This document shows, in pieces, positions 33,864 through 54,307 of a stretch of DNA of 59,542 nt. The notes under the pieces are model-generated. The model saw only the letters and a program-made list of their open reading frames with translations, was not told the DNA's origin and did not search any database. The DNA comes from Planctomycetota bacterium (GTDB taxonomy: Bacteria > Planctomycetota > Brocadiia > Brocadiales > Brocadiaceae). The translations under genes and the position numbers were made by a program. The stretch's first letter is position 1. Every line of letters begins with the position of its first letter. The stretch is from positions 1 to 59,542 of the forward strand of contig VGXV01000023.1 of assembly GCA_016873165.1 (NCBI GenBank), given 5' to 3'.

Positions 33864-34278
33864 AATACATCCTTTAAAAAAATTTATTTTTTACGTTTTT
33901 ATCCTACATAAAGACATAAATGCCTGTGCGCTGCAAAATAAAAAAATAGTTTATCATTTTTATACAAAATTAGAATAATTTCAAATTTTATTTGTATTCA
34001 GCATAAAACATTACCGTCCGGTATTGATTCGATCTTATACTTTGTTTGATAATGAGCAACAGTTCGGTAGTTTAATAGGTAACACTAAATAAGTCACAGT
34101 AAAATTTTATAAAATAAATTGCCGCACTATCCACTTGCAATTTCACTGATTTTTGCTCTAATACCGTATATTCGCCAAAAGAAAGACTATCATAAGAAGC
34201 GTCCTTAAAATGTTCGTCCGATTATAAAGTATAGTTCAAAATATTTTATAATGTGAACACTATTCTGAAATTTTAAAT
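33864..34278. other. Intergenic region between divergent parE and cytochrome operon
   Basis: These 415 AT-rich bases hold the divergent control regions of parE and the tetraheme operon. A TATAAT at about 34246 would suit a -10 box for the plus-strand operon, but no matching -35 box lies 16-18 bases upstream. No palindrome, terminator or RNA motif is clear. Confidence 0.4.
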
Positions 34279-34896
34279 ATGGTATCTATTACGTTATTAA
34301 TACCTGAAATTTACAGAAAAACCACGCTGAAAGTAAATATTTTATGCATCTTCTTTTGCTTATTCTGTACATGTCCCGCTATTTCTTTTGCTTTTGATCA
34401 CATCAAAACCCCGGGTGGAGAGAATAATGTTGTTGATTATACCCCTGTTCAGGGATATCTCCGTCCTCTGAAACTACGCCGCGACACACTTTTCGAATAC
34501 ACCTGCAATGAATGCCATCGCGTGTTTGACTCTGATGGAAATAAAAAGCACACAATCTTTGAACACACCGATGTAAAACTACATCACGGAAAAACGACCA
34601 TCTGTCTTAGCTGCCATCATAAAACAAACCGAAATGTCTATGTGACGAACGACGGGCAGGAAATACCTTCTGACAAACCGGAAGAACTTTGTTCCCAATG
34701 TCATGGAACAACTTATCGTGACTGGAAAGTTGGAACACACGGGCGCGCTAACGGTTACTGGAACAGCAAGGAAAAGGGGTGGTATTTGCTGACGTGCATC
34801 GAATGCCACAATCCGCATAATCCTGCATTCCCGAAGCTTGTGCCCATGTCTGGACCTGTAAATACCGGCAGGCATGTGAAAAAGGGGACACATTAA
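34279..34896 (+). CDS. Periplasmic tetraheme cytochrome c
   Basis: The 205-residue protein has an N-terminal secretion signal (about residues 18-41, ending ISFAF) and four haem-binding CxxCH motifs: CNECH, CLSCH, CSQCH and CIECH. Extra His residues (for example HTIFEH and HHGK) could be distal ligands. I start at ATG 34279; a later start would cut the basic part of the signal. It is the first gene of a four-gene operon with an Fe-S protein, NrfD and an octaheme cytochrome. By position it resembles NrfB, the electron carrier of the Nrf system, though NrfB has five haems. It probably passes electrons between the Fe-S protein and the octaheme enzyme. Confidence 0.88.
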   Translation: MVSITLLIPEIYRKTTLKVNILCIFFCLFCTCPAISFAFDHIKTPGGENNVVDYTPVQGYLRPLKLRRDTLFEYTCNECHRVFDSDGNKKHTIFEHTDVKLHHGKTTICLSCHHKTNRNVYVTNDGQEIPSDKPEELCSQCHGTTYRDWKVGTHGRANGYWNSKEKGWYLLTCIECHNPHNPAFPKLVPMSGPVNTGRHVKKGTH

Positions 34897-35886
34897 ATGT
34901 CTGATAAAACTACAGGAAATACCACTGGCACAGATAATTTTCCGCAGGAAAATAATGAATCCGTGAAACGGGAGATGTTTAAGCCTTTAAGCAGAAGAAG
35001 CTTTATGAAGGCTGGCGCGCTGGGGGCTCTGATGATCGGGGGAACCGCTACCGCTTTGCTGCCGCTTCGGAACTTTAAGAACGATACGTCTCTGGAGAAT
35101 TTTTTTCAACAGCACTACGAACGCCTAACACCAGAAAGAATGGAAAGGATACTGAAACGCATTGAAAGGGAAATTAAAGAACGCCACGGAGTAGACGCAA
35201 ATGTGCAAGACCCAAAACCCATTGCCGATGTTCAATTTGCCTATGCATTAAATATAAGCCGGTGCATCGGATGCAGACGCTGCGTGCATGCCTGCGTGGA
35301 GGAAAACAACCAGTCGCGCAACCCAGAAATACAGTATATCCGTGTTCTTGAAATGCCGGCAGGCACCTTTGACGTTGAAAAATCCGATCACTACTATTCT
35401 CATGAAACTGTGCCTGCTGAGGGAAAATATTACATGCCGGTTCAATGCCAGCAGTGCGAAAACCCGTCCTGCGTAAAAGCGTGTCCGGTAAGCGCCACGT
35501 GGAAAGATAAGGACGGCATCGTTGTCATAGATTACGACTGGTGTATCGGATGCCGTTATTGCGAGGCGGCATGCCCTTACTGGGCGCGTCGTTTCAATTT
35601 TGCAGAACCAAATATACCTAAAGAGCAAATTAATCCCGATATGGCATACCTCGGCAACCGGATCCGCAAAAAGGGAACTATGGAAAAGTGTACATTCTGT
35701 CTGGGAAGAACCCGCAAAGGTCTTCTTCCGAAATGCGCAGAGGCTTGCCCGGCCGGCGCAAGGCAGTTTGGCAATTTATTAGACCCGGAAAGTGTTATCA
35801 GGCATATTTTAAGGGAGAAACGGGTCTACGTGCTTAAAGAAGAAATGGGAACACGCCCTAAATTTTATTACTGGTTTGATACATGA
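34897..35886 (+). CDS. Tat-exported four-cluster iron-sulfur protein (NrfC/HybA-like)
   Basis: A 329-residue protein with a twin-arginine signal near residue 34 (SRRSFMKAG followed by a hydrophobic stretch), so it is exported folded with its clusters. It has four [4Fe-4S] motifs: CIGCRRCVHAC, CQQCENPSCVKACP, CIGCRYCEAACPY and CTFCLGR with CAEACP. This is the NrfC/DmsB/HybA electron-wire family. It starts directly after the tetraheme gene and overlaps the NrfD gene by 4 bases. It would carry electrons between the NrfD quinone site and the cytochromes. Confidence 0.93.
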   Translation: MSDKTTGNTTGTDNFPQENNESVKREMFKPLSRRSFMKAGALGALMIGGTATALLPLRNFKNDTSLENFFQQHYERLTPERMERILKRIEREIKERHGVDANVQDPKPIADVQFAYALNISRCIGCRRCVHACVEENNQSRNPEIQYIRVLEMPAGTFDVEKSDHYYSHETVPAEGKYYMPVQCQQCENPSCVKACPVSATWKDKDGIVVIDYDWCIGCRYCEAACPYWARRFNFAEPNIPKEQINPDMAYLGNRIRKKGTMEKCTFCLGRTRKGLLPKCAEACPAGARQFGNLLDPESVIRHILREKRVYVLKEEMGTRPKFYYWFDT

Positions 35887-37148
35887 AAAATAATTATAAA
35901 TCCGTTCAAAATGAAGCCGTCCCCGAATTCATCCGCAACTACGGATTGTTCCTCTTTCAGGCAATCAGACTAAGTTTTCGCGGCAGTACGGCCTTTTATG
36001 CATGGATGATATTCCTGTCTTTACTTTCCTTTTTCGGGCTTAGGGCTTACTGTAATCAGTTTGTGGAAGGACTTATTACCACCGGAATGACAGATCAGGT
36101 CTCATGGGGAATTTATATTGCCAACTTTACTTTCCTGGTTGGCATGGCCGCCGCAGCCGTTATGCTCGTAATACCTGCATATCTCTATAAGGATGAAGAA
36201 ATGCACACTATTGTTATCTTTGGAGAGTTGTTTGCAGTTGCCGTAATGGTTATGTGTATCCTATTCGTCACGGTTGACCTGGGACGCCCAGGACGTTTCT
36301 GGCATTTGATTCCTGGCATCGGGCGTTTTAACATTCCTGTGTCAATGCTGAGTTGGGATGTTGTGGCTTTACTTGGATATCTTGCGATAAATGCACACGT
36401 ATGCGGCTACCTGCTATATATGAAATATCTTGGGAAAAAGCCAAATAAGCTACTTTACATGCCATTCGTTTTTCTTTCCATCGCATGGGCTATTTCCATC
36501 CATACCGTAACTGCTTTTTTGTACGTGGGTCTTGCCGGACGTCCTTTCTGGAATTCTGCCATTGTAGCCCCGCGTTTTATCGGGTCGGCATTCACTGCAG
36601 GGCCTGCGCTGATGATCATCGCCTTTCAGATAATCCGCATGACAACGGGCTATCACATAGGCGACCGTCCCTTCCGCTTGCTCAGGCAGATTATGACAAT
36701 TTCGTTATTAACAACCCTTTTTCTGCTTGGATGCGAAGTTTTTAAAGAATTTTACAGCCAGTCTCTGCATAATTCGAGCGCCCGTTACCTGTTTTTCGGA
36801 TTGCATGGACATTATGCGCTTGTGCCGTGGATATGGACAGCCATTACATTTGAGATTGCTGCAATTATAATACTCCTGAGCGGTTATTCCAGGAAACCCG
36901 GCAGTTTTGTTTGGTTAAACATGGCGTGCATCCTGGCAACAGTGGGCATCTGGATAGAAAAAGGGCCCGGTTTGATTATCCCTGGTTTTTTACCAACGCC
37001 GCTGGGAGAAATCGTGGAATATATCCCAACGTACAATGAGACTATGGTCTGTGTCGGTATATGGGCGATTGGGGCGCTTATTTTCAGTTGGATGCTGCGC
37101 CTTGCAATACCTATTTTATCAGGTATTTTTCGCAAGAAAAACGAATAG
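35883..37148 (+). CDS. NrfD/PsrC-type membrane subunit
   Basis: A 421-residue integral membrane protein with about ten helices and the NrfD/PsrC family pattern in the second half, including a conserved acidic/aromatic region around the fourth helix. These subunits bind quinol or quinone at the outer membrane face and have no haem or Fe-S of their own; electrons leave through an NrfC-type partner, which is encoded immediately upstream (ATGA overlap). Good Shine-Dalgarno signals are absent because of the overlap. It is the membrane anchor of the four-gene redox module. Confidence 0.92.
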   Translation: MKNNYKSVQNEAVPEFIRNYGLFLFQAIRLSFRGSTAFYAWMIFLSLLSFFGLRAYCNQFVEGLITTGMTDQVSWGIYIANFTFLVGMAAAAVMLVIPAYLYKDEEMHTIVIFGELFAVAVMVMCILFVTVDLGRPGRFWHLIPGIGRFNIPVSMLSWDVVALLGYLAINAHVCGYLLYMKYLGKKPNKLLYMPFVFLSIAWAISIHTVTAFLYVGLAGRPFWNSAIVAPRFIGSAFTAGPALMIIAFQIIRMTTGYHIGDRPFRLLRQIMTISLLTTLFLLGCEVFKEFYSQSLHNSSARYLFFGLHGHYALVPWIWTAITFEIAAIIILLSGYSRKPGSFVWLNMACILATVGIWIEKGPGLIIPGFLPTPLGEIVEYIPTYNETMVCVGIWAIGALIFSWMLRLAIPILSGIFRKKNE

Positions 37149-37189
37149 AATATACAAATCTTTCGCATTTAATGGAGGTATCATAAATT

Positions 37190-38668
37190 ATGAATCATTT
37201 ACTACGTTTCTTAGCAGCTATATCCGTCGTCGTTCTGCTGTATTGCACGGCTCAGGAAGCGGGAACCTTTTCACCGGCAACCATTACTCCTGAGTCAGCA
37301 GAGTGCATTCGGTGTCATAAAGACACATCCAAAACCCTTTATCAGCAATGGGGAGCCAGCAAGCATTACATGGCAAACATCGGATGCTACGAGTGTCATG
37401 TTGCAGAAGAAGGAGACGTTGATGCATTCCGGCATGACGTCAAACTGGCGGATGGAACAACTTATATAGGAAAACTTATCTCTGTTATCGTCAGTCCCCG
37501 CGACTGCGGCAAATGCCATGAACGTGAAGTAAAGGAGTTTTCGGAATCGCACCATGCCTATGCGGGAAACATACTGGGGTCACTGGATAATACTCTCGCT
37601 GAGGTAGTTGAAGGAAACCGTGGTTTTGTCACACCGGGATTTCCTGAAGGAGTATCTGCCGCAGCGGTAAATGGTTGCTGGCAATGCCACGGCAGCGAGG
37701 TAAAGGTGCTCCCCGGAGGCAAGCTTGACCCCGCAACATGGCCGAATACCGGCATCGGAAGAATCAATCCGGACGGCTCACGCGGTTCCTGTTCGGCCTG
37801 TCATTCGCGCCATATATTCTCATCAAAACAGGCGCGCCGTCCTGAAAACTGCGGCAAATGCCACATGGGACCCGATCATCCCCAGCTTGAGATATACGAG
37901 GAATCGAAACATGGCATAGCTTTCCATGCCAATATCGACAAGATGAACCTTGACAATCCCAAATGGATACTAGGAGATGATTACAATGCCGCCCCAACCT
38001 GTGCAACCTGCCACATCTCCGCTACGCCGAACCAGCCGGTAAACCATGATGTAGGAATGCGTATCTCATGGAATAACAGACCTGCAATATCTGTGCGCCC
38101 GGAACTGTCTGACGAGAAAATGGGGCTTCCCGGGGCAAAAGTAAACTGGCATACCAGGAGAGAAAATATGCAGGATGTCTGCCGCAATTGTCATAATCAG
38201 CAGTTTATTGACGCATTTTACCTGCAATATGACGCCCTGATTAATTTGTACCATGAAAAATTTGCAGCTCCTGGCAAAGAACTTATGGCGCTGGCTGCCC
38301 CGCTTCTCAAACCGGTGGAATTTGCCAATAAAATTGATTTCACGTGGTTCGAACTCTGGCACCACGAAGGCAGGCGCGCAAGGCATGCCGCAGCCATGAG
38401 CGGACCAGACTGGACACACTGGCACGGAACGTATGACCTCGCCAAAAACTTTTACTCTCATTTCATCCCTGAGCTTGAAGAACTAATAGAAAAGGGGAAA
38501 ATTTCCGGCGATGAAATACAACAGAAGGCAGCAAAAATAACGGAAGAACGCCTCAATGAAATCCTGAACAGCGAGAACCACAGATGGTATCTGAATAAAA
38601 TGAATCCGGAAGAAAAAGAAAAAAGAAAAGCCCGCCAAGAGGAATTCAAGGCGCGTTATACGAAGTAG
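37190..38668 (+). CDS. Octaheme cytochrome c of the HAO family
   Basis: The 492-residue protein has a secretion signal (about 1-24) and eight CxxCH motifs in HAO order: CIRCH, CYECH, CGKCH, CWQCH, CSACH, CGKCH, CATCH and CRNCH. The family motif WHHEGRRARHAAAMSGPD confirms HAO relationship. HAO proteins oxidise hydroxylamine or hydrazine through a P460 haem crosslinked to a Tyr from a neighbouring subunit; from memory, that Tyr lies in a PDYxxWHG motif, and this protein has PDWTHWHG. If so it cannot form P460 and may reduce nitrite or NO instead, as reported for Tyr-lacking HAO-like enzymes. GGAGG precedes the ATG. It ends the NrfC/NrfD operon. Confidence 0.93.
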   Translation: MNHLLRFLAAISVVVLLYCTAQEAGTFSPATITPESAECIRCHKDTSKTLYQQWGASKHYMANIGCYECHVAEEGDVDAFRHDVKLADGTTYIGKLISVIVSPRDCGKCHEREVKEFSESHHAYAGNILGSLDNTLAEVVEGNRGFVTPGFPEGVSAAAVNGCWQCHGSEVKVLPGGKLDPATWPNTGIGRINPDGSRGSCSACHSRHIFSSKQARRPENCGKCHMGPDHPQLEIYEESKHGIAFHANIDKMNLDNPKWILGDDYNAAPTCATCHISATPNQPVNHDVGMRISWNNRPAISVRPELSDEKMGLPGAKVNWHTRRENMQDVCRNCHNQQFIDAFYLQYDALINLYHEKFAAPGKELMALAAPLLKPVEFANKIDFTWFELWHHEGRRARHAAAMSGPDWTHWHGTYDLAKNFYSHFIPELEELIEKGKISGDEIQQKAAKITEERLNEILNSENHRWYLNKMNPEEKEKRKARQEEFKARYTK

Positions 38669-38726
38669 CGCCGTTCGCGATATAGTTAAAAGCATCTGGT
38701 TTTCGAAAGTTTTATACTATAATATG

Positions 38727-38795
38727 CTTCGACTCCGCTCAGCATGACATGTTTTTCATAGATGACTTTTATTGTCACCCTGAGCGGAGTCGAAG
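38727..38795. repeat. Inverted repeat sharing the family B core
   Basis: Two 16-base arms, CTTCGACTCCGCTCAG and its complement, enclose about 37 bases. The same arms form the core of the family B elements at 49451 and 53827, but the outer terminal repeats are missing here. It lies between two convergent genes (octaheme cytochrome and nnrE) and could also act as a bidirectional transcription block. Confidence 0.7.
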
Positions 38796-38891
38796 GGTAT
38801 TTCTATTTGTAAAAGGAAGACTCTGTTTAATGTTTCGAAAACCATATTTGTTTTGCTATATATACTCAATATGAACATATTGAGTATATTA

Positions 38892-45365: not shown

Positions 45366-46493
45366 ATGGATGAAAATAAAACAAAGCAACAACTTATTGA
45401 AGAAATAAAGGTATTGCGTCAAAAATTGCATGAGTATGAGGCTCGGCTATTAAAAGCAGAAGATGCCGTTGCATGGGAGGCAAAAGTTAACGCAACATTG
45501 GTGGAGTTGTCAAAGGCTTTAATAAAGCCGGACAATTCAATTGAAAATTTGTCGATGCTTGTTCTGGGGTATGCAAAATATCTGACAAACAGTCCTGTTG
45601 GGTATGCCGGATACGTTGACAAACAAACGAACAGTTTTGTTTCTCCTGCGATAACCAGTGAGGTTTCAGAAATATTCGATATACCAAAAGGAAACATTGA
45701 GTTTAATGATTTTCGTGGACCATGGGGATGGGTGCTGGAAAATAAAAAATCTCTTGTAATGAATGAGCCGTCAGATGGTTCGGGTGCAAATGTGTTATTA
45801 AGAAAGAGTGTACCATTGAAACGGTTTTTGTCCGTGCCGGCCATGCTCGGCAAGATAATTGTCGGGCAGATAACCGTGGGAAATGCTGCAAATGCATATT
45901 CCGAAAAGGATATTCAGTTGTTGGAACGCATTGCGGTGCTCTATTCCATTGCTATCCAGCACCTGTGGACGGAAGAAGTAATTACGCACATGGCATATTT
46001 TGATGAAATCACCAATCTGCCAAACAGACGATTATTTAATGATCGCCTCTTTGTAGCCATTTCAAACGCAAACCGATACCGGAACAGACTTGCAGTAATG
46101 TTTCTCGACCTGGATGGATTTAAAAATGTTAATGATACGCTTGGCCATCAAATGGGAGACCAGTTACTTGTAGAAATTGCTTATCGATTGAGCCATACTG
46201 TCCGGCAGTCTGATACTGTTGCGAGAATGGGCGGCGATGAATTTACTGTTTTGTTGACACAAGCAGAGCATGAAAAAGATATAATCAATGTGGCAAATAA
46301 AATACTGAAAGCGGTAAGACAGCCGATAATGATCGATGGCAACGAAATAAACATTACCATCAGTATCGGAATTGCACAATACCCTGATAATGGTAAAGAC
46401 GTGAATGCACTATTGAAAAGCGCGGACATCGCCTTATATCGTGCAAAAGAATTGGGTAAAAATAATTATCAATTTTCATCTAATAGAGAATAG
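45366..46493 (+). CDS. GAF-GGDEF diguanylate cyclase
   Basis: I start at ATG 45366 because MDENKTKQQLIEEI is the usual N-terminus of this protein class; a GTG 21 codons upstream is possible. The 375-residue product has a coiled-coil start, a GAF domain (about 45-200) and a GGDEF domain with DEITNLPNR and the intact ARMGGDEF site. It has no membrane segment. It should make c-di-GMP in response to a small ligand. Its 3' end overlaps the frame of the next gene, whose own start lies 35 bases on. Confidence 0.9.
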   Translation: MDENKTKQQLIEEIKVLRQKLHEYEARLLKAEDAVAWEAKVNATLVELSKALIKPDNSIENLSMLVLGYAKYLTNSPVGYAGYVDKQTNSFVSPAITSEVSEIFDIPKGNIEFNDFRGPWGWVLENKKSLVMNEPSDGSGANVLLRKSVPLKRFLSVPAMLGKIIVGQITVGNAANAYSEKDIQLLERIAVLYSIAIQHLWTEEVITHMAYFDEITNLPNRRLFNDRLFVAISNANRYRNRLAVMFLDLDGFKNVNDTLGHQMGDQLLVEIAYRLSHTVRQSDTVARMGGDEFTVLLTQAEHEKDIINVANKILKAVRQPIMIDGNEINITISIGIAQYPDNGKDVNALLKSADIALYRAKELGKNNYQFSSNRE

Positions 46494-46527
46494 TCCGTCA
46501 GAGTCTGTTATTCCTGGTGCATCTCCT

Positions 46528-48027
46528 ATGAAAAAAATATTTGGTTGTGTGCTATTTGCATCTTCTCTTTTTCTATTTCCTATAAAAACACATGCTATCG
46601 GCAAATTACAGCAGGATTTACCGTATGCCGTCAGTGAACAAACACAGATTTGTATATTATGCCATAGAAATGTGACGCCGGGCATCGTAGAAGATTGGAA
46701 AACAAGCAGGCATTCGAAAGTAACCCCTGAAATCGCTCTTAAAAAACCATTATTGGAAAGAAGAGTTTCGAGCGAGACGATACCGGAAGATATTGGTTCG
46801 GTTGTCGTTGGATGTTATGAATGCCACAGCCAAAATAGTTCTCTCCACAAAGACAATTTTGAACATTTCGGATTTCACATCAATGTAGTTGTGTCTCCAA
46901 ACGATTGCAAAACATGCCATGCAAAAGAAGCGGCGCAATTTTCCGGCAGCAAAAAAGCATATGCGTTAGACAATCTGAGGGAAAATCAAATCTATAGCCA
47001 ATTTGTTGATGCCGTTCCGTCAATAAAAGAAGTAAGAGATAGCACTATCCATTATTCAAATGCATCTGAAAAATCGAAACTGGAAACATGCTATGCATGC
47101 CATGGCGCCGAAATAACAGTGGACGGTATGAGAAAAATTAAAACCAATTTCGGAAATATTGAAGTTCCCAATCTTAAAAACTGGCCCAATCAGGGGGTAG
47201 GGAGGATTAATCCTGATGGGAGTCGTGGTGCATGTACTTCATGCCATCCAAGGCATAGTTTCTCTATCGAAATAGCAAGAAAACCCTATACCTGTTCCCA
47301 GTGTCATCTTGAACAGGATATACCTGCTTACGAAGTATATAATGAGAGCAAACACGGAAACATATTTCTTTCAAAACAGGATACATGGAATTGGAATAAT
47401 GTGCCGTGGAGGGTTGGCATGGATTTTCAAGCGCCCACCTGCGCAACATGTCATAATAGTTTGCTGGTAAACCCTGAAGGCAAGGAAATTGTGTCCCGGA
47501 CGCATGATTTTGGTTCGCGGTTATGGGTAAGAATATTTGGGCTTATTTATTCTCATCCTCAGCCGAAAAGCGGGAAAACGTACGAAATAAAAAATAAAGA
47601 TGGGCTGCCTTTGCCTGCGACATATATGAATGAAGTGGCCGCAGAATATTTGATCGATGAGGAAGAACAATTGGTACGAAAAAATGAGATGAAAAAGGTT
47701 TGCAATAGCTGTCACAATAATGATTGGGTTTCCGGTCACTTTGAAAAATTCGATTCAACATTATCAGAGACAGATACGATGGTTTTAAATGCTACAACTC
47801 TTATGAAAAACATGTGGGACAAGGGGTTTGCCGATGCATCAAATCCTTTTGATGAATTAATTGAAATGTTGTGGGTAAAACAATGGTTTATTTATGCAAA
47901 TTCAATCCGGTTTGCCTCTGCAATGATCGGACCCGATCGCGCTACGTTTAAAAACGGGTGGTGGCAGTTAACGGAGAATTTCCACAAAATACATGAATTT
48001 GCAAAAAAATGCGAATATGAACATTGA
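46528..48027 (+). CDS. Diverged octaheme cytochrome c of the HAO family
   Basis: The ATG at 46528 gives a clean signal (MKKIFGCVLFASSLF, cleaved near THA) and 499 residues; the longer frame upstream runs into the GGDEF gene. Eight CxxCH motifs are present in HAO order: CILCH, CYECH, CKTCH, CYACH, CTSCH, CSQCH, CATCH and CNSCH. The GVGRINPDGSRG region matches the other HAO protein. The crosslinking-Tyr region is changed more strongly: where the other has PDWTHWHG this has GPDRATFKNG. No redox partner gene is next to it; two GAF-GGDEF genes flank it. Its reaction is unknown, and an electron-transfer role is possible. Confidence 0.88.
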   Translation: MKKIFGCVLFASSLFLFPIKTHAIGKLQQDLPYAVSEQTQICILCHRNVTPGIVEDWKTSRHSKVTPEIALKKPLLERRVSSETIPEDIGSVVVGCYECHSQNSSLHKDNFEHFGFHINVVVSPNDCKTCHAKEAAQFSGSKKAYALDNLRENQIYSQFVDAVPSIKEVRDSTIHYSNASEKSKLETCYACHGAEITVDGMRKIKTNFGNIEVPNLKNWPNQGVGRINPDGSRGACTSCHPRHSFSIEIARKPYTCSQCHLEQDIPAYEVYNESKHGNIFLSKQDTWNWNNVPWRVGMDFQAPTCATCHNSLLVNPEGKEIVSRTHDFGSRLWVRIFGLIYSHPQPKSGKTYEIKNKDGLPLPATYMNEVAAEYLIDEEEQLVRKNEMKKVCNSCHNNDWVSGHFEKFDSTLSETDTMVLNATTLMKNMWDKGFADASNPFDELIEMLWVKQWFIYANSIRFASAMIGPDRATFKNGWWQLTENFHKIHEFAKKCEYEH

Positions 48028-49450: not shown

Positions 49451-49622
49451 GGGAGCATTCCCGATTTTTTGTAACTCATCATTTATAGTATGCTTCGACT
49501 CCGCTCAGCATGACCCGAACTGTCACCCTGAGCGGAGTCGAAGGGTTGAGTTTCTCAGTGACATGAGGAACTTTTCATATTCGGCAGAATTGTTTTATTT
49601 ACAAAAAATCGGGAATGCTCCC
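49451..49622. mobile_element. MITE-like element, family B, copy 1
   Basis: A 172-base element with inverted ends (GGGAGCATTCCCGATTTTTT and complement) and an inner palindrome made of CTTCGACTCCGCTCAG arms. It has an exact 8-base duplication, GGCAAAGG, at 49443-49450 and 49623-49630. It contains no gene. The copy at 53827-54307 is the same element in the opposite sense, interrupted by another insertion. Confidence 0.9.
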
Positions 49623-53826: not shown

Positions 53827-54307
53827 CGGGAGCATTCCCGATTTTTTGTAAATAAAACAATTCTGCCGAATATGAAAAGTTCCGGAACACTTTAGTTTTT
53901 TGAAAAATTGCCCATATCTTAACCCCATGCTTCAGCATGGGGTTAATGGAAAAACAATGATGGGCTTCAGCCCTGAGGTAAACTTAGCCCAATATCTTTC
54001 ACTGTATTAGGTTGTAGAGACAAGTTTCAAACCTGTCTCTACTAAAGCCAGTGTATTTATTGTTGATATCTCCGCACTAAAGTGCGGAGTTAATGGATGC
54101 GAAATTTGCTCCATGCGCCAATATTAGAGGTGCATTATAAAACAAGGAAAATCGAAGTCTTTTTCAAAAAGCTAAAGTGTTACAAAGTTCCTCATCTCAC
54201 AGAGAAACTTAACCCTTCGACTCCGCTCAGGATGACAGTTCGAGTCATGCTGAGCGGAGTCGAAGCATACTATAAATGATGAGTTACAAAAAATCGGGAA
54301 TGCTCCC
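53827..54307. mobile_element. MITE-like element, family B, copy 2, interrupted
   Basis: The family B element is present in the opposite orientation from copy 1, with 8-base duplications CTATACAA (53819-53826 and 54308-54315). Its own sequence is about 173 bases once the 300-base family A insertion and its 8-base duplication are removed, matching the 172 bases of copy 1. No gene is in 53577-54838 other than these elements; a minus-strand frame at 54526-54750 has no homology I know. Confidence 0.88.
53884..54183. mobile_element. MITE-like element, family A type, nested in family B
   Basis: A 300-base insertion bounded by the family A terminal repeats (GGAACACTTTAG and CTAAAGTGTTAC) that splits the family B element. 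An 8-base duplication AAAGTTCC flanks it (53876-53883 and 54184-54191). Its interior differs from the short copies: it carries several hairpins, including an AACCCCATGCTTCAGCATGG type palindrome and an AGAGACA(A/G)GTTTCA hairpin also seen at 43275. It shows the family A ends can carry different cargo. Confidence 0.88.

Follow-up and report, generated by a model that had tools for sequence, protein, structure and literature searches.

The DNA analysed here, a stretch of 59,542 nucleotides from a Planctomycetota bacterium of the family Brocadiaceae (assembly GCA_016873165.1, contig VGXV01000023.1; hereafter the window), carries a nearly gapless four-gene cassette on its forward strand (34279-38668), which probably encodes a quinol-linked nitrite reductase. 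The first gene (34279..34896) encodes a tetraheme c-type cytochrome of 205 amino acids with four CXXCH motifs (TET), and the second (34897..35886) a DsrO-like, Tat-exported four-cluster Fe-S protein of 329 amino acids (FES), which carries the Tat motif RRSFMK and 16 Cys arranged as four predicted Fe-S cluster motifs. These are followed by a quinone-reactive membrane subunit of the NrfD superfamily and DsrP type (NRFD; 35883..37148), with 421 amino acids and 10 transmembrane helices as predicted by a simple hydropathy scan, and by an octaheme cytochrome c of the HAO family (OCC; 37190..38668), a protein of 492 amino acids with eight CXXCH motifs that is presumed to be the catalytic subunit. The TAA stop codon of TET directly abuts the ATG of FES, the last 4 nt of FES (ATGA) are shared with NRFD, and OCC, preceded by a GGAGG-like ribosome-binding site, begins 41 nt past NRFD. 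An earlier, sequence-only reading had described these genes as one operon of a tetraheme cytochrome c, a Tat-dependent Fe-S protein, an NrfD-type subunit and an octaheme HAO-like protein, and its genes, motifs, overlaps and gene order were all borne out.

The eight CXXCH motifs of OCC, arranged in HAO order, together with phmmer matches to HAO-family structures (4qo5, 3.6e-44; 6h5l, 8.5e-19; 1fgj, 1.9e-15), identify this protein at the sequence level as a member of the HAO family. A predicted model of modest quality (pLDDT 64, pTM 0.54), which was built without hemes and was used only in a supporting role, matched the same structures at this low confidence: 4qo5 with Z 9.3 (root mean square deviation 18.1, 280 aligned residues), 1fgj with Z 8.7 (4.9, 211 aligned) and 6h5l with Z 7.9 (17.1, 248 aligned). 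The CXXCK catalytic heme motif of ONR-type enzymes is missing from OCC, as all of its heme motifs are CXXCH; structure searches with the model recovered ONR-type structures at noise level only, which we do not count as an exclusion. An Asp229-His230 pair is invariant in 32 OCC orthologs, and likewise invariant among them is His410, which in a multiple alignment occupies the column of the cross-linking Tyr found in the C-terminal region of the oxidative enzymes HAO and HDH. This Tyr is thus missing from OCC, whereas it is kept in the HDH and HAO paralogs encoded by the same genome. The column lies in a divergent region, and its placement by the alignment agrees with a published statement that a His at this key site corresponds to a reductive and a Tyr to an oxidative state (PMC12758564). 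The nearest paralog of OCC in its own genome (C17:9611-11302), approximately 50% identical over its length, was rejected as a second cassette, since it stands alone without a TET-FES-NRFD triplet.

TET has a Sec-type signal peptide with a cleavage-like site between SFA and F (judged by eye). In an alignment of 34 sequences eight of its His are invariant, and four of these (H96, H103, H154 and H180) lie outside the CXXCH motifs, which is the number expected for four bis-His hemes; we propose that TET is the electron carrier linking the Fe-S subunit to the octaheme protein. No relation of TET to NrfB was found beyond the heme motifs (chain 2ozy, E 0.19). It gave no match to the NCBIfam DsrJ family and an hhalign probability of 5.9 against the genuine DsrJ of locus L210, a single-sequence target, and its predicted structure (pLDDT 73.6) had no PDB match at E<=0.001. 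The top NCBIfam family of FES is DsrO (NF045797), with 171 bits below a cut-off of 200, while NrfC (TIGR03149) reached only 107 bits against a cut-off of 377.6. NRFD matches PF03916 (E 1e-35) and, with 396.1 bits, exceeds the cut-off of 350 of the curated DsrP equivalog NF045798; it is a single-copy gene, and no second module or subunit of its kind was found elsewhere in the genome. Since NRFD lies above the DsrP cut-off and FES is matched best by DsrO and poorly by NrfC, the pair is DsrOP-like.

The sequence-only reading had interpreted the operon as the Nrf nitrite reductase arrangement with NrfB replaced by a tetraheme protein and NrfA by an HAO-like one. As a functional analogy this holds, because the cassette shares with the E. 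coli type of NrfABCD a quinol-oxidising NrfD-type subunit, a four-cluster Fe-S protein, a small multiheme carrier and a multiheme cytochrome in the place of the nitrite reductase. Membership in the NrfABCD system, however, was rejected: the catalyst is an octaheme HAO-type protein instead of the pentaheme NrfA, which was not found in the host genome (TIGR03152); the carrier has four CXXCH motifs instead of the five hemes of NrfB, to which it showed no relation beyond these motifs; and FES, which misses the NrfC cut-off, and NRFD are nearest to DsrO and DsrP. With the DsrJOP part of DsrMKJOP the cassette has in common a DsrP-type membrane subunit and a DsrO-like ferredoxin beside a small multiheme cytochrome, but this cytochrome has four hemes and no detectable relation to the triheme DsrJ. 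Membership in DsrMKJOP was likewise rejected, given the DsrO score below the cut-off, the missing DsrJ match and the finding that one genome (G418) holds the cassette plus a separate, genuine DsrJOP set. A further similar system is the sulfite reductase MccACD, which also combines an octaheme cytochrome with an NrfC/NrfD-type module, but contains no tetraheme subunit of the TET kind; its octaheme cytochrome belongs to a different octaheme family than OCC.

The linkage of the four genes extends well beyond the window. A scan of public genomes gave at least 380 relatives, of which the best 80 octaheme loci were kept, so that the following counts are not a measure of prevalence. In 45 of these 80 independently fetched loci all four families lie on the same strand within 3.9-5.1 kb, an arrangement well beyond chance, with 34 loci in the order of the window (TET-FES-NRFD-OCC) and 11 in the order OCC-TET-FES-NRFD; partial cassettes, mostly broken by contig ends, were present in 7 further loci. 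OCC carriers are labelled as Planctomycetota, Hydrogenedentota, Verrucomicrobiota, Myxococcota, Bdellovibrionota, Latescibacterota, Aminicenantes, Pseudomonadota and Desulfobacterota, among others, and also include sulfur bacteria; the cassette itself occurs in genomes of Planctomycetota, Verrucomicrobiota, Hydrogenedentota, Myxococcota and Desulfobacterota. On a quick OCC tree, which gave long-branch warnings for the own-genome paralogs, the gene arrangements cluster (0 of 500 shuffles were as low). A gene of the napA cluster occurs near the octaheme gene in 13 of the 80 loci, 12 of them with a full or partial cassette, and both representatives of this cluster that were scanned exceed the NapA cut-off of NF010055. 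The four-gene linkage, the napA neighbours and the published chemistry of the family support the earlier view of a quinone-linked module with an HAO-type octaheme protein as its terminal catalyst.

In Desulfobacterota, triplets of TET, FES and NRFD in the class with 65-80% NRFD identity mostly accompany OCC, whereas related triplets with 50-56% NRFD identity mostly lie beside other genes, including other multiheme cytochromes. The triplet with its varied partners therefore looks like a reusable quinone module, of which OCC is the partner in the present version. A rival reading is that no single complex is formed at all, and that the triplet serves various partners as a general quinone module, with the octaheme protein as a mere neighbour. 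Although related triplets do flank 16-heme or 8-/11-heme cytochromes instead, and the triplet is missing at some octaheme loci, we regard this explanation as quite improbable in view of the linkage of all four genes in 45 loci and two different orders, and of their gain or loss as a self-contained 5-kb block (see below). Among the neighbours of the octaheme gene we also observed an uncharacterised protein of approximately 150 amino acids, usually encoded just downstream of it, in 22 loci (e.g. L145:9474-9938 and L079:9471-9914), for which no Pfam or NCBIfam match was found. In two order-level relatives (L045 of genome G001 and L046 of genome G002) an approximately 53%-identical octaheme gene adjoins genes for a conserved 6-helix membrane protein and a 152-amino-acid protein, not the triplet, and L046 additionally holds a tetraheme protein of a NapB-like cluster; these neighbours are possibly another electron-donor module. 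Two Desulfobacterota loci (L195 and L196) link a TET-FES-NRFD-like triplet to a 16-heme cytochrome of 741 amino acids with an N-terminal NrfH/NapC-like part.

Taken together, we propose, with a probability of roughly 60%, that the products of the four genes form a self-contained quinol:nitrite oxidoreductase, which would most likely make ammonium and possibly NO. Quinol would be oxidised at the DsrP-type membrane subunit NRFD, and electrons would travel by way of the four Fe-S clusters in the exported FES, and then the bis-His tetraheme TET, to OCC, where heme 4 would be the site of nitrite reduction; the complex would face the periplasm or the anammoxosome lumen. The potential of the nitrite/ammonium couple is well above that of menaquinone, so that quinol oxidation would be downhill, while hydroxylamine oxidation coupled to menaquinone would not be favoured. 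Of the two directions that the sequence-only reading had offered, a quinol-linked reductase or a quinone-reducing oxidase, the former is favoured by His410, the nap linkage and the in-vitro nitrite reduction by a family member, and the latter is disfavoured. In an oxidase OCC would oxidise hydroxylamine, or hydrazine, and the module would feed the electrons to the quinone pool. NrfD-type subunits can indeed operate in both directions, with Qrc and Hyd-2 reducing quinone (PMC8076601), the related protein BOGUAY_0691 oxidises both compounds in vitro (PMC6449678), and both are handled by anammox bacteria. However, all 32 orthologs examined have His410 instead of the Tyr of HAO and HDH, most cassette carriers are not known to metabolise ammonia or hydrazine, the napA linkage points elsewhere, and HDH and HAO are already encoded by the host genome, which makes the oxidase very unlikely.

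The literature on related proteins is consistent with nitrite reduction in part. Thermosulfurimonas (T. dismutans) and Dissulfuribacter (D. thermophilus) reduce nitrate to ammonium without NrfA, and a four-gene locus described for them in 2017 comprises an HAO-like multiheme cytochrome, an NrfD-family membrane protein, a periplasmic 4Fe-4S protein and a membrane-attached cytochrome c within one 11-gene cluster together with napMADGH (PMC5276818). Judged by this published description, the four clustered gene kinds of the hao-nrfD locus (TDIS_0606-0609) agree with those of our cassette; the hosts there, however, are ammonifying sulfur bacteria, whereas ours belongs to the anammox bacteria and has no NapA above the cut-off. 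Activity data are available for BOGUAY_0691, the orange octaheme protein of a Guaymas Beggiatoaceae, which was grouped with Thiomargarita homologs (PMC6449678). OCC shares 63% identity with the homolog from Thiomargarita nelsonii (L143), whose N-terminus (MSRKLWA) resembles the MIRKLWA encoded by the primer in that study. BOGUAY_0691 is thereby placed in the same octaheme clade as OCC by family, through the Thiomargarita homolog, and not by direct sequence.

Several observations weigh against the quinol:nitrite oxidoreductase. BOGUAY_0691 combines nitrite reduction with hydroxylamine and hydrazine oxidation in vitro, and the nitrite activity of the recombinant protein was low (PMC6449678). Moreover, its sampled relatives in Thiomargarita and other gammaproteobacteria have no TET-FES-NRFD genes nearby, and in nine octaheme loci whose flanks extend for 4 kb or more in either direction all three partners are missing from the vicinity, which indicates that the octaheme protein is able to work alone. 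Conversely, the related triplets beside other multiheme proteins in Desulfobacterota imply that the triplet alone is no predictor of the substrate. Since nothing above the NapA cut-off was found in the host genome, the argument from nap linkage draws on other organisms, and no biochemical assay of OCC or of any assembled four-subunit complex was found in the open literature searched. Finally, the authors who described the 2017 locus proposed nitrite reduction or sulfur metabolism for it (PMC5276818), and a sulfur substrate was also raised by those who reported a Desulfobacterota HAO-family protein (PMC9213671).

Such a substrate (sulfite, tetrathionate or polysulfide) would imply that OCC functions in the manner of MccA and receives electrons from quinol through the DsrOP-like module. 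MccACD provides a precedent for an octaheme protein coupled to an NrfCD-type module in sulfite reduction (PMC8076601), the membrane subunit is DsrP-like, and there are sulfur bacteria among the carriers. Nevertheless, we consider this function unlikely, given the napA linkage in 13 loci, the HAO-type Asp-His pair kept by OCC, a host that is an anammox bacterium living on nitrite, and the many carriers, such as Phycisphaerae and Verrucomicrobiota, that are not typical sulfur reducers.

That the host is an anammox bacterium follows from its HDH (a near-full-length match to 6hif) and its HAO paralogs; with OCC, its HAO-like genes number approximately nine. A search for the four genes in other Brocadiales, which had been suggested as a check together with the sequence-only reading, found the cassette in only 4 of 62 genomes, namely the host, one other Brocadiaceae and two Scalindua, and it is hence rare in this order. 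We therefore rejected the idea that it is the core nitrite reductase of anammox bacteria. The cassette of the second Brocadiaceae genome (G025; L042:2358-10394) may be split, since 8 kb of DNA containing several small, unrelated genes separate FES from the NrfD-type gene. The distribution also bears on the product, since OCC might make NO rather than ammonium from nitrite, as proposed for HAOr-type enzymes, and thereby feed hydrazine synthase. NO is required by anammox, and OCC resembles the reductive HAO-like proteins of anammox bacteria (Kustc0457/0458, PDB 6h5l; HAOr) in its HAO fold and the missing cross-link Tyr, but it is only approximately 24% identical to the matching host paralog (L005). 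With the cassette in 4 of 62 Brocadiales genomes and most carriers not being anammox bacteria, it cannot be a general anammox source of NO, and we consider NO as the product rather unlikely.

Comparison with two genomes of the same genus revealed an empty site. A 5.0-kb block (33876..38888), consisting of the four genes with approximately 0.4 kb upstream and 0.2 kb downstream, is missing from both: in one (G030) the two flanks, which in the window end at 33875 and resume at 38889, are directly adjacent, and in the other (G031) they are separated by 175 bp of unrelated DNA. Insertion of the block in the host lineage is a simpler reading than its loss in the relatives, and the cassette in the host is probably an accessory, laterally acquired unit. 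The GC content of the block (0.442), the highest of the 5-kb stretches sampled in the window (others <=0.430), is a mild sign of acquisition. On the OCC tree the four anammox sequences form a group adjoining a Desulfobacteraceae sequence.

Additional features were observed in the window and the host genome. An inverted repeat with arms CTTCGACTCCGCTCAG is present in three copies (38727-38795, 49493-49543 and 54215-54265), with six exact arm matches compared to none expected in shuffles; the first copy falls within the 5-kb block, shortly past the end of OCC. Eight kb downstream of the cassette lies a second octaheme HAO-like gene (46441-48027) with 42% local identity to OCC, which by pattern belongs to the same group as PDB 4qo5. 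In its product the Asp-His pair has Ile in the His position (QDIP instead of PDHP), and a Phe is found near the cross-link Tyr column, so that its chemistry may differ from that of HAO. The host genome also encodes, near position 48792 of contig C17 (L011), a cytochrome of 403 amino acids with 11 CXXC[HK] motifs and an HAO-like segment.

The cassette is a newly found case of a four-gene kind that has already been described but is biochemically uncharacterised. As far as the searched literature shows, our analysis adds to the earlier description its breadth, the DsrOP identity of the quinone module, the two gene orders, its occurrence among anammox bacteria and the empty site. More generally, and tentatively, since we hold it somewhat less probable than even, a mobile and widespread DsrP/DsrO-type quinol module with a dedicated tetraheme cytochrome may drive HAO-family reduction of nitrite to ammonium without NrfA in many phyla, including some anammox bacteria. 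If it is a true quinol:nitrite reductase, the cassette would define a second modular route of nitrite reduction beside Nrf and would fill a gap in Phycisphaerae, in a survey of which canonical nitrite reductases were missing (PMC11266412). For anammox bacteria it provides a candidate for the conversion of nitrite to ammonium where NrfA is missing from the genome. It also shows that closely related genomes can acquire or lose a whole respiratory module as one piece of 5 kb. At the same time it narrows the search for the anammox nitrite reductase, as OCC is ruled out as the common one.

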